This document shows positions 12,090 through 31,345 of a DNA stretch of 64,000 nucleotides, in pieces. The DNA comes from Plotosus lineatus (taxonomy: Eukaryota; Chordata; Actinopteri; Siluriformes; Plotosidae): contig CM045745.1 of NCBI GenBank assembly GCA_024760905.1, forward strand, positions 19,452,782 to 19,516,781, written 5' to 3'. The stretch's first letter is position 1, and the number at the start of each line of letters is the position of its first letter. The notes beneath the pieces are model-generated. The model was not told the origin of the DNA. It ran no database searches and was given only the letters and a program-made list of their open reading frames with translations. A program made the position numbers and the translations under genes.

Positions 12090-13110
12090 ATAATGTATGT
12101 CTGTAGGAATTACATATTAATATTAATTCTATTCAGTTTCAGCTGCATTGTTTTCACAATTTAGCAATGAGGTCTTTCTGTCATGTTACAAAGATTGCAG
12201 AACGAGGGCAAAGAAGTAATCTCAACATTGAACATGATTGCACGCGCATTCATACAGGAAAATAAACGATATTTGTGAAACGAATGAAATTAAATAATAT
12301 ATACAGTTATATATTAACTATCAATATTATTGCAGTAATGGACAGAAGTTATTCTAAGTGGAAGTATATGGTTAAAAAGTCAGCAGAATCGAGCCTATGC
12401 ACAAAAGTACTGCTACCACACATGTTACGAAACACAACAGATTTTTGTTTATCATGTCAGATCATCATAGTACAGATATACACGCAAAAATAGCTATAAA
12501 TGTACTTCAATTACCATCAAATTCATGAATATGGAAAAACCTAAACTAGGAGGTATGAAATGTGTACTGTTATATAATATCACTTATACCCAATACTGTT
12601 GAATTCTCGAATCTAACTGGTCAGGATGATTATTATTTTACCTGGCAACACGGCTCTAACAATAGCACCGACTGTAATTCAGATGATGGGCTCATATTAC
12701 TGTGCTTGTTCTAAGATTTTGTCTTTTCTATAGCAGCAGCTCTTTCAGAGGATCTTCTTTAGTGGATACTGTGGTATCCTAGAAGTCATAACAGGAAATA
12801 ACTTTTCTGGAAGATGTTCCACGATGCTACATCTATCTAGAAACAGTGACTATTTAAAGTGCCATTCATTAATAACTTAATAAATTAAATTGTAATCGTT
12901 GGACATTTGCTGTGGGGTAAGAGGTATAAAACACATTGGAATGTGCTTCATTGGAAATTAAGCAAATGCTCAACGGTGTTGATTATTTTCCTACAACTTC
13001 CAGCCCTGATATGATTTATTCATTGCAGGATATACTGTACAAAGAAAATCCCAGTTGGTAAATGTTCATTTATCCAGCACTCACAACTAATGCATACAGT
13101 ATATGCATAT
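12090..13110. other. Stretch without recognised features
   Basis: No recognisable exon or transposon end. AT-rich, with only short uninformative open frames. Confidence 0.4.
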
Positions 13111-13116
13111 TTTTTA

Positions 13117-13119
<3 letters not shown>

Positions 13120-13183
<64 letters not shown>
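13120..13183. repeat. (TA)n microsatellite left of the palindrome
   Basis: Uninterrupted TA run. Confidence 0.97.
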
Positions 13184-13186
<3 letters not shown>

Positions 13187-13223
13187 AAAAATAAAAGGAC
13201 AGGACAAAGACTTTCTATTGAAA

Positions 13224-13294
13224 CTCCATTTATCACTACAGATCTGTTTCGAGGGGTGGTGAAACCATCCTCTCTCTTCAGGTGATTATAGAAG
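13224..13294 (-). ncRNA. Hammerhead ribozyme candidate, minus strand
   Basis: Mirror copy of the plus-strand motif in the left arm. On the minus strand CTGAAGA lies at 13281-13275 and GAAA at 13250-13247. Cleavage is predicted between 13237 and 13236. All core and stem positions are identical to the other arm; the only arm mismatch lies outside the core, in the outer part of stem I. Confidence 0.8.
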
Positions 13295-13318
13295 AGTCTT
13301 CTATAGTTCAATAGTATT

Positions 13319-13389
13319 CTTCTATAATCACCTGAAGAGAGAGGATGGTTTCACCACCCCTCGAAACAGATCTGTAGTGATAAATAGAG
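13319..13389 (+). ncRNA. Hammerhead ribozyme candidate, plus strand
   Basis: All conserved core positions are present in order. Stem I 5' strand ATCAC (13327-13331). Core CTGAAGA (13332-13338), fitting CUGANGA. Stem II GAGAGG (13339-13344) pairs with CCCCTC (13357-13362), with one A-C mismatch; above it TGGT pairs with ACCA. Core GAAA (13363-13366). Stem III is the palindrome ACAGATCTGT (13366-13375). The cleavage triplet GTA would be cut after 13376. Stem I 3' strand is GTGAT (13377-13381), perfectly paired, with outer pairing CTAT/ATAG beyond a small internal loop. Short stem III with a 2-nt loop is the form known from Penelope-like element ribozymes. Activity is inferred, not shown. Confidence 0.8.
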
Positions 13390-13465
13390 TTTCAATAGAA
13401 AGTTTTTGTTATTTGCTCTACCAAAAAGTATTGAGCACTCTCCTACGGAAGGATCTACTCAGAAA

Positions 13466-13468
<3 letters not shown>

Positions 13469-13523
<55 letters not shown>
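13469..13523. repeat. (TA)n microsatellite right of the palindrome
   Basis: Uninterrupted TA run about 65 bp beyond the right arm. Confidence 0.97.
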
Positions 13524-13526
<3 letters not shown>

Positions 13527-13611
13527 GTAGAAATACAATATTCCATTGCCCAACAGAATTTTTTCACATAAATGAATGATACACATATTAATTGATTTTT
13601 GATTGATTAAC

Positions 13612-16203: not shown

Positions 16204-17334
16204 TCAGTGTGCCTTCAGGCTTTTCTGGACAGGACCATAAATCTGGTATGCACACCACCCAAAATATGCAATAATGGAAGCTATACACCCTTGTAGCAGG
16301 AGCAGCAGCCCAAATGTGGAATAGATTGTCGGGCCGGGGAGCTGGGAAACTGTGGTGGTTACTACAACCAAGGAAGGCTGAAGCAACAGGGCTCGGATCT
16401 CTACCTTGATCATATGGAGCTCATCAAGGATGGAGAGGAAGGTGCAGCAGTGGAACCACTGATGACTGTGCCCCCAGATGTCAAACTGTCCTGGAGACAA
16501 ACGTTCTGGGATCTTGCTAATATTAAAGGCTGCAGACACCACCAGCCAGAAGCAGTGACGATAGAAAAATGTGGCCATTGTAGGTGATGAGTAAGAAGAA
16601 GGCATCTGAGAAGAGGGTGGATATGGTGATGGGCTGAGGAGACGGTAGAAGATTGGCGTGGATGAAATGAAGAAGGGCAGAAGGAAAACAAGAGTCCGTA
16701 CAGCATAGCGGTACTTCCTCCACTGCTGTCTGGTGTTACAACAGGTTAATACACAGATAATGGCTACCAGGCAGGAACAAGGAATGTACATGTTATCCAA
16801 AAATTGGTGGAAATGCTGGAGAGATGAGGATGGAGTAGAAGGAGGAGCATCTTCACTCTCTGACTTTGTCTCTGATATGTTCGGTGTCCCAAGCCCAACC
16901 TTTGGTATCCCTGCCTGTGGGTGAATGTAGTAATAATAAGCCAGAGATGAACCAACAGTATAAGCACTGATGGTTCCATAATCCACAAAGAAGCAGATCT
17001 CTCTGATGATCAGTGACATGGAGTTGAGGAGATGAGCCATACTACTGGCCAGCAGCAGGTACAAAACCCCGAAGAAATAGGTCCAGGCTGGGTAGAAGAA
17101 GGGATCTCCAAAAGCTGGGGCTCCATCCCACTTGAATATCTCGATAAAGTGAAATGTGAAAATAAATATTGGCAGGAAGTGTGTCCAGAAATTTCCAGTC
17201 TCGTTGGTAGGCCGGAAAGCCGAGACCAGGCACTGTATGAGGCTGTAGTCAGGGAAACGGTAACCTGACAAAATGAAGTTCTCTGTCACTCTTGGTGGAA
17301 CATCTGTGTGACGAAGGAGAGGTAGAGACCACAT
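16204..17334 (-). CDS. paqr9: Membrane progestin receptor of the PAQR family, PAQR9-like
   Basis: Complete single-exon frame of 376 residues, almost the length of human PAQR9 (377), which is also intronless. Multi-pass plasma-membrane protein; mPR-class PAQRs are proposed steroid receptors signalling through G proteins, and PAQR9 is called mPR epsilon. Seen in order: ENFILSGYR (19-26), NETGNFWTHFLP (44-55), SSMAH (97-101), FFVDYG (116-120), a serine-rich loop (about 150-175), a hydrophobic segment ending in TCCNTRQQW, YRHCFWLVVSAAFNISKIPERL (258-279) and GHSHQWFH (288-295). His101, Asp118, His291 and His295 match the metal-site residues of PAQR proteins. At least seven hydrophobic segments are present. 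ATG at 17334-17332 is the first Met of the frame. The FWLVV-FN-SKIPER block is PAQR9-like rather than PAQR5-8-like. The frame is intact with no sign of decay. Confidence 0.92.
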   Translation of the reverse strand: MWSLPLLRHTDVPPRVTENFILSGYRFPDYSLIQCLVSAFRPTNETGNFWTHFLPIFIFTFHFIEIFKWDGAPAFGDPFFYPAWTYFFGVLYLLLASSMAHLLNSMSLIIREICFFVDYGTISAYTVGSSLAYYYYIHPQAGIPKVGLGTPNISETKSESEDAPPSTPSSSLQHFHQFLDNMYIPCSCLVAIICVLTCCNTRQQWRKYRYAVRTLVFLLPFFISSTPIFYRLLSPSPYPPSSQMPSSYSSPTMATFFYRHCFWLVVSAAFNISKIPERLSPGQFDIWGHSHQWFHCCTFLSILDELHMIKVEIRALLLQPSLVVVTTTVSQLPGPTIYSTFGLLLLLQGCIASIIAYFGWCAYQIYGPVQKSLKAH

Positions 17335-30840: not shown

Positions 30841-31345
30841 ATTCAGTCAGTCATCTTCTAAGATGCTTAATCCTAATTAGAATCACGAGGAGGCTGGCGC
30901 CCAGCCCATCTCAGCCGACTGTGAGCAAGGGCAGGAATCACCCTGGATAGCTTGCCAGGTCTTAAAGGGCCAACACACAGGGCAGTCGTGGCTTAGACGA
31001 TAAGGCGGTGGGTTGCTGATCTGTAGGTCAGCAGTTCAAGTCCCACTATCACTGCTGTTGGGCGCTTGAGCAAGGCCCTTCATCCTCAATTGCTCAGCTG
31101 AATTAAAAAAAGATAAGTGTAAGTCGCTCTGGATAAGAGCGTCTGCCAAATGCTGTAATGTAATATACTGTAACACACACACACACACACATAACTATTC
31201 ACACCCACCTAGAAGTGATTTGGAACAGCCAATTACTGTAGCCTACTGTGCATGTTTTTGGACTCTTAGAGTAAACCGGAGTACCTGCAAGTATGGGGAG
31301 AACATGCAAACCCCATACAGAAACACCCTGCGTCTAGGAACAACA
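30841..31345 (-). mobile_element. V-SINE split by another SINE
   Basis: Minus-strand V-SINE: tail (TTAATCCTAATTAGAATCAC complement), body and core (GCATGTTCTCCCCATACTTG). Interrupted at 30980-31170 by SINE-B. Confidence 0.82.
30980..31170 (+). mobile_element. SINE-B (tRNA-derived, GTCGCTCTGGATAAGAGCG tail)
   Basis: Head GGGCAGTCGTGGCTTAGACG, B-box-like GCAGTTCAAGTCCC, body GGGCGCTTGAGCAAGGCCCT, tail AAGTCGCTCTGGATAAGAGC with CTGCCAAATGCTGTAATGTA. AACACACAC on both sides may be the target duplication. This tail is common in fish SINEs. Confidence 0.85.

Follow-up and report, generated by a model that had tools for sequence, protein, structure and literature searches.

Head-to-head hammerhead motifs in Plotosus lineatus: a probable copy of a short, non-coding Penelope-like retroelement

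Head-to-head terminal repeats are known from Penelope-like elements (PLEs). The Pen families of Adineta vaga comprise head-to-head inverted terminal repeats (pLTRs) as well as solo pLTRs, carry a short "tail" on one of the two pLTRs and lie in AT-rich simple targets (PMC3846280). Self-priming was proposed for these inverted pLTRs, there on an antisense template, and Arkhipova et al., who hypothesised it for endonuclease-containing PLEs, wanted experiments that would discriminate between models (PMC3846280). In vitro, the Poseidon protein PAc of Anolis carolinensis cleaves AT-rich DNA on both strands and extends each of them, and it initiates reverse transcription (RT) at two internal positions that delimit the tail (PMC11167929). 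PAc RNA carries a hammerhead (HHR); according to that paper, HHR mutants left insertion in vitro unaffected, cleavage needed the protein, and no RNA-seq reads started or ended at the HHR cleavage site (PMC11167929). A term search of its main text returned no mention of head-to-head products. The hammerheads of PLEs are described as minimal forms of type I in which helix III is very short or missing (PMC6155905, PMC7761336), and type I hammerheads are also found in metazoan retrozymes, which are small non-autonomous elements whose direct repeats give RNA circles (PMC7229834, PMC7761336).

The palindrome described here lies in a 64,000-nt stretch of the genome of Plotosus lineatus, which is called the window in what follows. 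An initial annotation of this stretch had described two hammerhead ribozymes facing each other in one palindrome, with arms of 86 nt that differ at one base. The inverted repeat is real and slightly longer, with two arms of 92 nt each (13204-13295 and 13318-13409) that contain 2 mismatches and are separated by a 22-nt spacer; inside the narrower limits of the annotation, exactly 1 mismatch is found. The parts are given in Table 1, where unit positions refer to the repeat unit of the family described below. The right arm of the window copy carries a 19-nt deletion at about unit 86-104.

Table 1. Features of the palindrome and its flanks, in window coordinates
Feature	Position	Strand	Remarks
Left (TA)n flank	13120..13183		Putative insertion target or priming end, judged from sequence
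Left arm, short, without tail (unit 1-112)	13184..13295	-	100% identical to the unit over 112 nt
Minus-strand hammerhead, predicted (unit 1-72)	13224..13295	-	Core 13238-13281; fold; predicted cleavage between 13237 and 13236
Central spacer	13296..13317		Unique among the copies read; holds the arm-end scrap TCTTCTATA
Right arm, long, with tail (unit 1-170)	13318..13468	+	151 nt aligned to 170
Plus-strand hammerhead, predicted (unit 1-72)	13318..13389	+	Core 13332-13375; predicted cleavage between 13376 and 13377
58-nt tail (unit 113-170)	13411..13468	+	Present at one end of the pair, comparable to the optional "tail" of PLEs
Right (TA)n flank	13469..13523		Judged from sequence

Elsewhere in the window, an open frame of 376 aa on the minus strand (16204-17334) contains an HlyIII domain (E 1.1e-32) and is perhaps an intron-poor PAQR receptor gene. 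A UnaL2-type LINE 3' hairpin is found at 31106-31159 on the plus strand (61.6 bits); at other positions there are several families of interspersed repeats and two matches that resemble tRNAs.

As the annotation had stated, both arms hold a complete hammerhead core. The pattern CTGANGA-N-GAAACANNNNTGT has 2 matches in the 64 kb, one per arm and on opposite strands, against a mean of 0.01 and a maximum of 1 in 100 dinucleotide shuffles of the window. Around the elements CUGANGA, GAAA and NUH three stems can be drawn, as in type I hammerheads, and the core is intact in 70 of the 80 arms of the first 40 copies of the family. The assignment of the plus-strand hammerhead is based on the core match, a hand-drawn fold and a weak alignment to RF00163 (13326-13381); the structure that can be drawn for this arm has a stem I of 5+6 bp, a stem II of 9 bp and a stem III of 3 bp with the loop GATC. 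This three-stem fold has an energy of -15.2 kcal/mol, and a better alternative fold reaches -18.9 kcal/mol. In the left arm, stems I and II are contained in the minimum free energy structure, and the folding energies of the isolated arms are unremarkable (z -1.94 and -0.82). The type I topology and the very short helix III are shared with the minimal hammerheads of PLEs, which usually are without helix III (PMC6155905, PMC7761336), whereas the arms described here can form a helix III of 3 bp and a stem I of 11 bp.

The covariance-model search that had been put forward as a check gave a negative result: no hammerhead in the window reaches Rfam gathering scores, and the 601-nt stretch 13000-13600 gives no Rfam hammerhead match up to E 10. 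The right arm alone, which aligns to RF00163 throughout the core, scores 10.7 bits (gathering score 34, E 7), a low value that may be due to the minimal form of PLE hammerheads, with their small or missing helix III. For RNA that spans the entire palindrome, folding predicts a single long hairpin (-166.1 kcal/mol); if the prediction is right, this structure would mask the ribozyme. Matches to miRNA precursors on the palindrome (up to 53.3 bits) lie below their own gathering scores and were discarded; they would reflect any long hairpin.

The ribozymes had been said to stand alone, which is wrong, since the palindrome is one copy of an interspersed family. The genome (1.33 Gb, 30 contigs) was searched with the 286-bp element as the first query, and the best 40 of 416 candidates were scored. 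Besides the window's own place, this set contains 39 places that re-align at 83.7-92.8% identity, and a head-to-head pair is present in 40 of 40 copies, a set that is biased towards pairs because the query itself was a pair. The second set, obtained with an arm-only query of 96 bp, consists of the best 40 of 203 candidates, of which 7 were already in the first set and 33 are new; it is unbiased towards pairs but favours arms whose first 90 nt are intact. Each set covers the top scores of a longer list of candidates. The 33 arm-only loci comprise 25 head-to-head pairs, 7 solo units and 1 direct tandem (a stricter count, which misses the 19-nt second arm of L067, gives 24 pairs in this set). Metazoan retrozymes are likewise small non-autonomous elements with type I hammerheads, but they are built of direct repeats that give RNA circles (PMC7229834, PMC7761336), whereas here the head-to-head arrangement prevails; an assignment to retrozymes was rejected on the single direct tandem among these 33 loci. 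The arms of the first set differ on average by 1.05% from the majority line over the columns used, and 36 of the 80 show no difference, which indicates that the copies sampled are young.

The repeated unit, which recurs usually in (TA)n, is about 170 nt long and non-coding, with the hammerhead at its 5' end (unit 1-72). The short arm ends at about unit 86-116, and the long arm continues as the tail to unit 170, where it is often followed by (CT)n and then by (TA)n. On visual inspection, nearly all of the 40 first-set copies have (TA)n or TA-rich sequence next to their left end, the exceptions being L040 and L047; target-site duplications are unreadable in (TA)n flanks. At the sites where RT starts, the stuttered motifs TTTTTGTTTTTG and GTGTGTGTG were seen among L009, L036, L045 and L038. 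These motifs and the succession of (CT)n and (TA)n past the tail are reminiscent of reiterative, telomerase-like copying.

The junction between the arms appears to be made anew in each copy. The spacers are all different, in 40 of 40 first-set copies and in 64 of the 64 head-to-head pairs of both sets, with the proviso that 5 of the 64 measure 3 nt or less and their distinctness says little. They range in length from 0 to 363 nt, and those of L073 and L075 hold unrelated sequence. In the first set, 126 of 437 spacer six-mers also occur in arm ends (shuffles: mean 2.9%, maximum 5.7%), and a stretch of at least 8 nt is common to spacer and arm end in 20 of the 40 spacers (shuffles: mean 0.7, maximum 5). 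A private variant of the arms of L041 is also present in the spacer of that copy. In their composition, the spacers look like templated filler, which may come from end joining or from a template-jumping RT.

The two arms of a pair differ in length in a regular way. One long and one short arm are combined in 59 of the 64 pairs of both sets; the exceptions are L040, L044, L046, L053 and L075, of which L046 and L075 reflect limits of scoring, L046 being scored as short/short although the tail has begun in its right arm when a run of N sets in, and L075 being cut by the locus edge and omitted from the arm-only tally. In that tally, 22 of the 23 readable pairs are long and short (binomial versus 0.5, 5.7e-6). 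Independent choice of start sites predicts about half, so the two cDNAs seem to be coupled and asymmetric. The inner ends of the arms are at least 10 nt apart in 8 of 64 pairs, and in six pairs (L060, L061, L069, L071, L076 and L083) each arm has sequence that is missing from its partner, which argues that these pairs are not a product of fold-back copying; the mutual non-containment amounts to only 16 nt in L060 and L083 and to at least 39 nt in the other four. The arms of L061 have little in common beyond TTTTTGT, and those of L076 little or nothing.

Variants within the arms bear on the number of templates. The right arms of L028 and L046 share the 19-nt deletion of the window copy, and the truncated right arm of L044 is consistent with it; the left arms of all four copies pass the deletion point undeleted, that of L046 stopping near unit 105. 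Judged by this deletion, the window copy, L028 and L046 each derive from two different templates, and L044 probably does. Subtypes are mixed between the arms in L029, L037 and L040. In most copies, both arms belong to the same subtype (classes assigned by hand; Fisher p 1.3e-5, 5.3e-5 and 7.8e-4, the first test omitting 4 copies with odd left ends), which suggests that the templates often come from the same source. Such concordance would equally be expected if the palindrome were copied whole, whereas the unique spacers and the independent truncations would not. The distance between arms is uninformative (0.0194 within copies versus 0.0204 between, permutation fraction 0.089). Two variants that had been considered as proof of two templates were set aside as weakened: the one at column 94 is partly an alignment effect of the 19-nt deletion, and the one at column 76 looks recurrent, being discordant in L041 despite three private variants that its arms share.

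The cleavage sites predicted in the annotation, 13377 on the plus strand and 13236 on the minus strand, both correspond to unit 60, where various other copies begin; the predicted cut falls between unit 59 (A) and unit 60 (G). Exact matches to unit 60-85 that are preceded by a base other than A number 339 genome-wide, and the reversed control gives 0. Among the first 20 listed of these 339 (L093-L112, all on one contig, with L102/L103, L106/L107 and L109/L110 as shared loci), 10 start at unit 60, and the other 10 are longer arms with a base change; L094, a solo unit, starts at unit 60 and adjoins (TA)n. Head-to-head copies of unit 60-72 with no more than 20 nt between them occur at 137 loci, compared with 25 at the single control position, unit 75. 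Hand counts among 50 listed of the 137 junctions give 16 with 0-3 nt between the ends, compared with 1 of 25 in the unit-75 control, and 11 that are centred on the palindromic stem III, which could be deletions between the two copies of that stem. Unit 61 preceded by a base other than G has 217 matches, mostly with A among those listed, in which starts and substitutions are counted together and which do not form a clean control. Starts at unit 57-61 are seen in only 1 of 142 arms of a sample that was selected for similarity to pairs or to arms of full length. This indirect genomic footprint makes hammerhead cleavage in vivo likely in the family, which differs from the report on Anolis, where the HHR was dispensable for insertion in vitro, its cleavage depended on protein and RNA-seq ends were not found at the site (PMC11167929). 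Among the same 50 junctions, 9 have a lone A or T between the two unit-60 ends, as if one untemplated base had been added by RT, and 6 centre exactly on TACAGATCTGTA.

With a probability of roughly 0.7, the palindrome is an insertion product of a Penelope-like retroelement that is short and non-coding, in which two cDNAs were joined head-to-head. A break in AT-rich DNA would allow both target strands to prime reverse transcription of separate templates, which to judge from the copies would usually be of one subtype. One cDNA would start at the end of the tail (unit 170) and the other at an internal site at about unit 112. The 3' ends of the cDNAs, which correspond to the 5' ends of the templates, would be joined with short, partly templated filler, a step to which the junctions point strongly and which would yield a head-to-head pair with a fresh spacer. 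Less surely, some templates may have been uncleaved, as in arms that start at unit 1-6, and others may have been cut by their own hammerhead, as in arms whose first position is unit 60, where the cleavage product is predicted to begin. The enzyme would probably be supplied in trans by a Penelope-like protein. Both target strands also prime cDNA in the twin priming of LINE-1, where the cDNAs are joined in inverted orientation and share one RNA; unlike this, the copies described here point to two template molecules, most of them transcribed as far as the 5' end.

The distinct spacers, the long and short pairing and the independent truncation together argue for two separately copied cDNAs that were joined, and against self-priming. 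Taken with the structure of the junctions, from which the pairing and joining are deduced, the biochemistry of the Anolis protein suggests two primed strands, two templates and joined cDNAs. The two systems would share internal RT starts at sites bounding the tail, the use of both target strands and AT-rich sites, but PAc is autonomous (PMC11167929), unlike the unit described here. The Pen families of A. vaga resemble the present family in their inverted and solo pLTRs, one-sided tail and, apparently, simple AT-rich targets (PMC3846280); unlike them, the pairs read here have no ORF between the arms and their filler spacers are unique to each copy, and their arm structure argues for two templates instead of self-priming. 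We hold it somewhat better than an even chance that two-sided TPRT, near-obligatory long and short starts, joining at template 5' ends and templates that are often cut by the hammerhead together describe how the family inserts. If true, the family would provide in vivo evidence for hammerhead cleavage in PLEs, would explain inverted terminal repeats in head-to-head order with no need of self-priming, and would record the insertion chemistry of PLEs in hundreds of natural junctions of one genome. A young family with junctions particular to each insertion would amount to a natural sequencing experiment on two points raised in print; in the literature searched, a link between such junctions and these points was not found.

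Several other origins of the palindrome were weighed. In self-priming, or snap-back, a single cDNA would fold on its own 3' end and copy itself, which would suit arms that are mostly of one subtype, the private variants that L041 and L030 each have in both arms, and filler that is rich in arm scraps. The short arm, however, ends at a near-fixed internal site, and as a general model self-priming was rejected, being contradicted by the six pairs whose arms could not have been copied whole, one from the other, and by the two-template copies (window, L028, L046, L029, L037 and L040); we consider it decidedly improbable. It is improbable, too, that the palindrome itself replicates and has its centre rewritten at each copying or later. 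Revision of palindromic DNA by breakage at its centre is a known concept, and both the concordant subtypes of the arms and the odd left ends common to L009 and L036, to L029 and L042, and to L028 and L031 would be expected from it, but a replicating palindrome does not readily give 64 distinct spacers in 64 pairs, one-sided truncations of arms whose outer ends are intact, or solo units whose 5' end is the inner end of an arm (7 of 33 loci, and also L034). The insertion of two joined cDNAs would also leave little room for the stand-alone pair of sense and antisense ribozymes, evolved for regulation, that goes back to the annotation, since a palindrome that arises from insertion steps is not a designed device of this kind. 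The core is intact on both strands and a long hairpin is predicted, as such a device would have it, yet the pair belongs to a repeated family with target flanks, insertion-type junctions and, at 7 of 33 loci, solo copies without an antisense arm, and this reading was rejected; its chance of being right is very small. Least credible is an inverted-repeat DNA transposon (MITE) inserted at TA, which the size of the palindrome, about 290 bp, and its position among TA repeats would call to mind; it was rejected because the outer ends are not inverted repeats, as 59 of 64 pairs carry the tail at a single end, and the differing spacers and the solo units also speak against it.

A further alternative concerns the cleavage step only and leaves the joining of two cDNAs untouched. 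The starts at unit 60 could stem from deletion at the DNA level or from RT stops at a folded hammerhead and not from cleavage of RNA, which is unlikely. Direct-repeat deletion is possible for the 11 junctions that centre on stem III, but the junctions with 0-3 nt show no such repeat by eye, the solo unit L094 starts at unit 60 directly beside (TA)n, and RT halted by the fold should stop ahead of the 3' strand of stem I and not beyond it.

The annotation had drawn a connection with the terminal repeats of Penelope-like elements, which holds for the architecture, since a pLTR with a hammerhead, a one-sided tail and inverted pLTRs are found as expected of a non-autonomous PLE derivative; it does not extend to a reverse transcriptase, as none sharing the unit was found in the 8 of 25 GIY-YIG loci read, and membership is therefore a matter of inference. 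No protein with RT and GIY-YIG domains is contained within the element, whose 170-nt unit is too short to encode one. With a PLE-like architecture but no encoded protein, the element is filed as a probable non-autonomous Penelope-like derivative. A GIY-YIG search of the genome gave 25 matches from 73 candidates, of which 8 loci of about 3.2 kb each were read. By their reading frames, 7 of the 8 look like RT/GIY-YIG elements, and a Pfam scan of two of them placed GIY-YIG above and RVT_1 below the cut-off. The unit is absent from these 8 of 25 loci within the roughly 3.2 kb of each, beyond which 5' repeats may lie, and its best similarity to them is 16 nt (E 1.7).

The GIY-YIG family itself crowds the ends of chromosomes, with 17 of the 25 matches no more than 70 kb from a contig end (4 others lie on contigs without a known length). 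Telomere-type runs, short or long, are present in 4 of the 8 loci read (L089-L092, the loci of interest being L086-L092). From its domains and reading frames, this family looks like an RT-bearing Penelope-like element, and an endonuclease-bearing PLE at telomeres would merit separate study.
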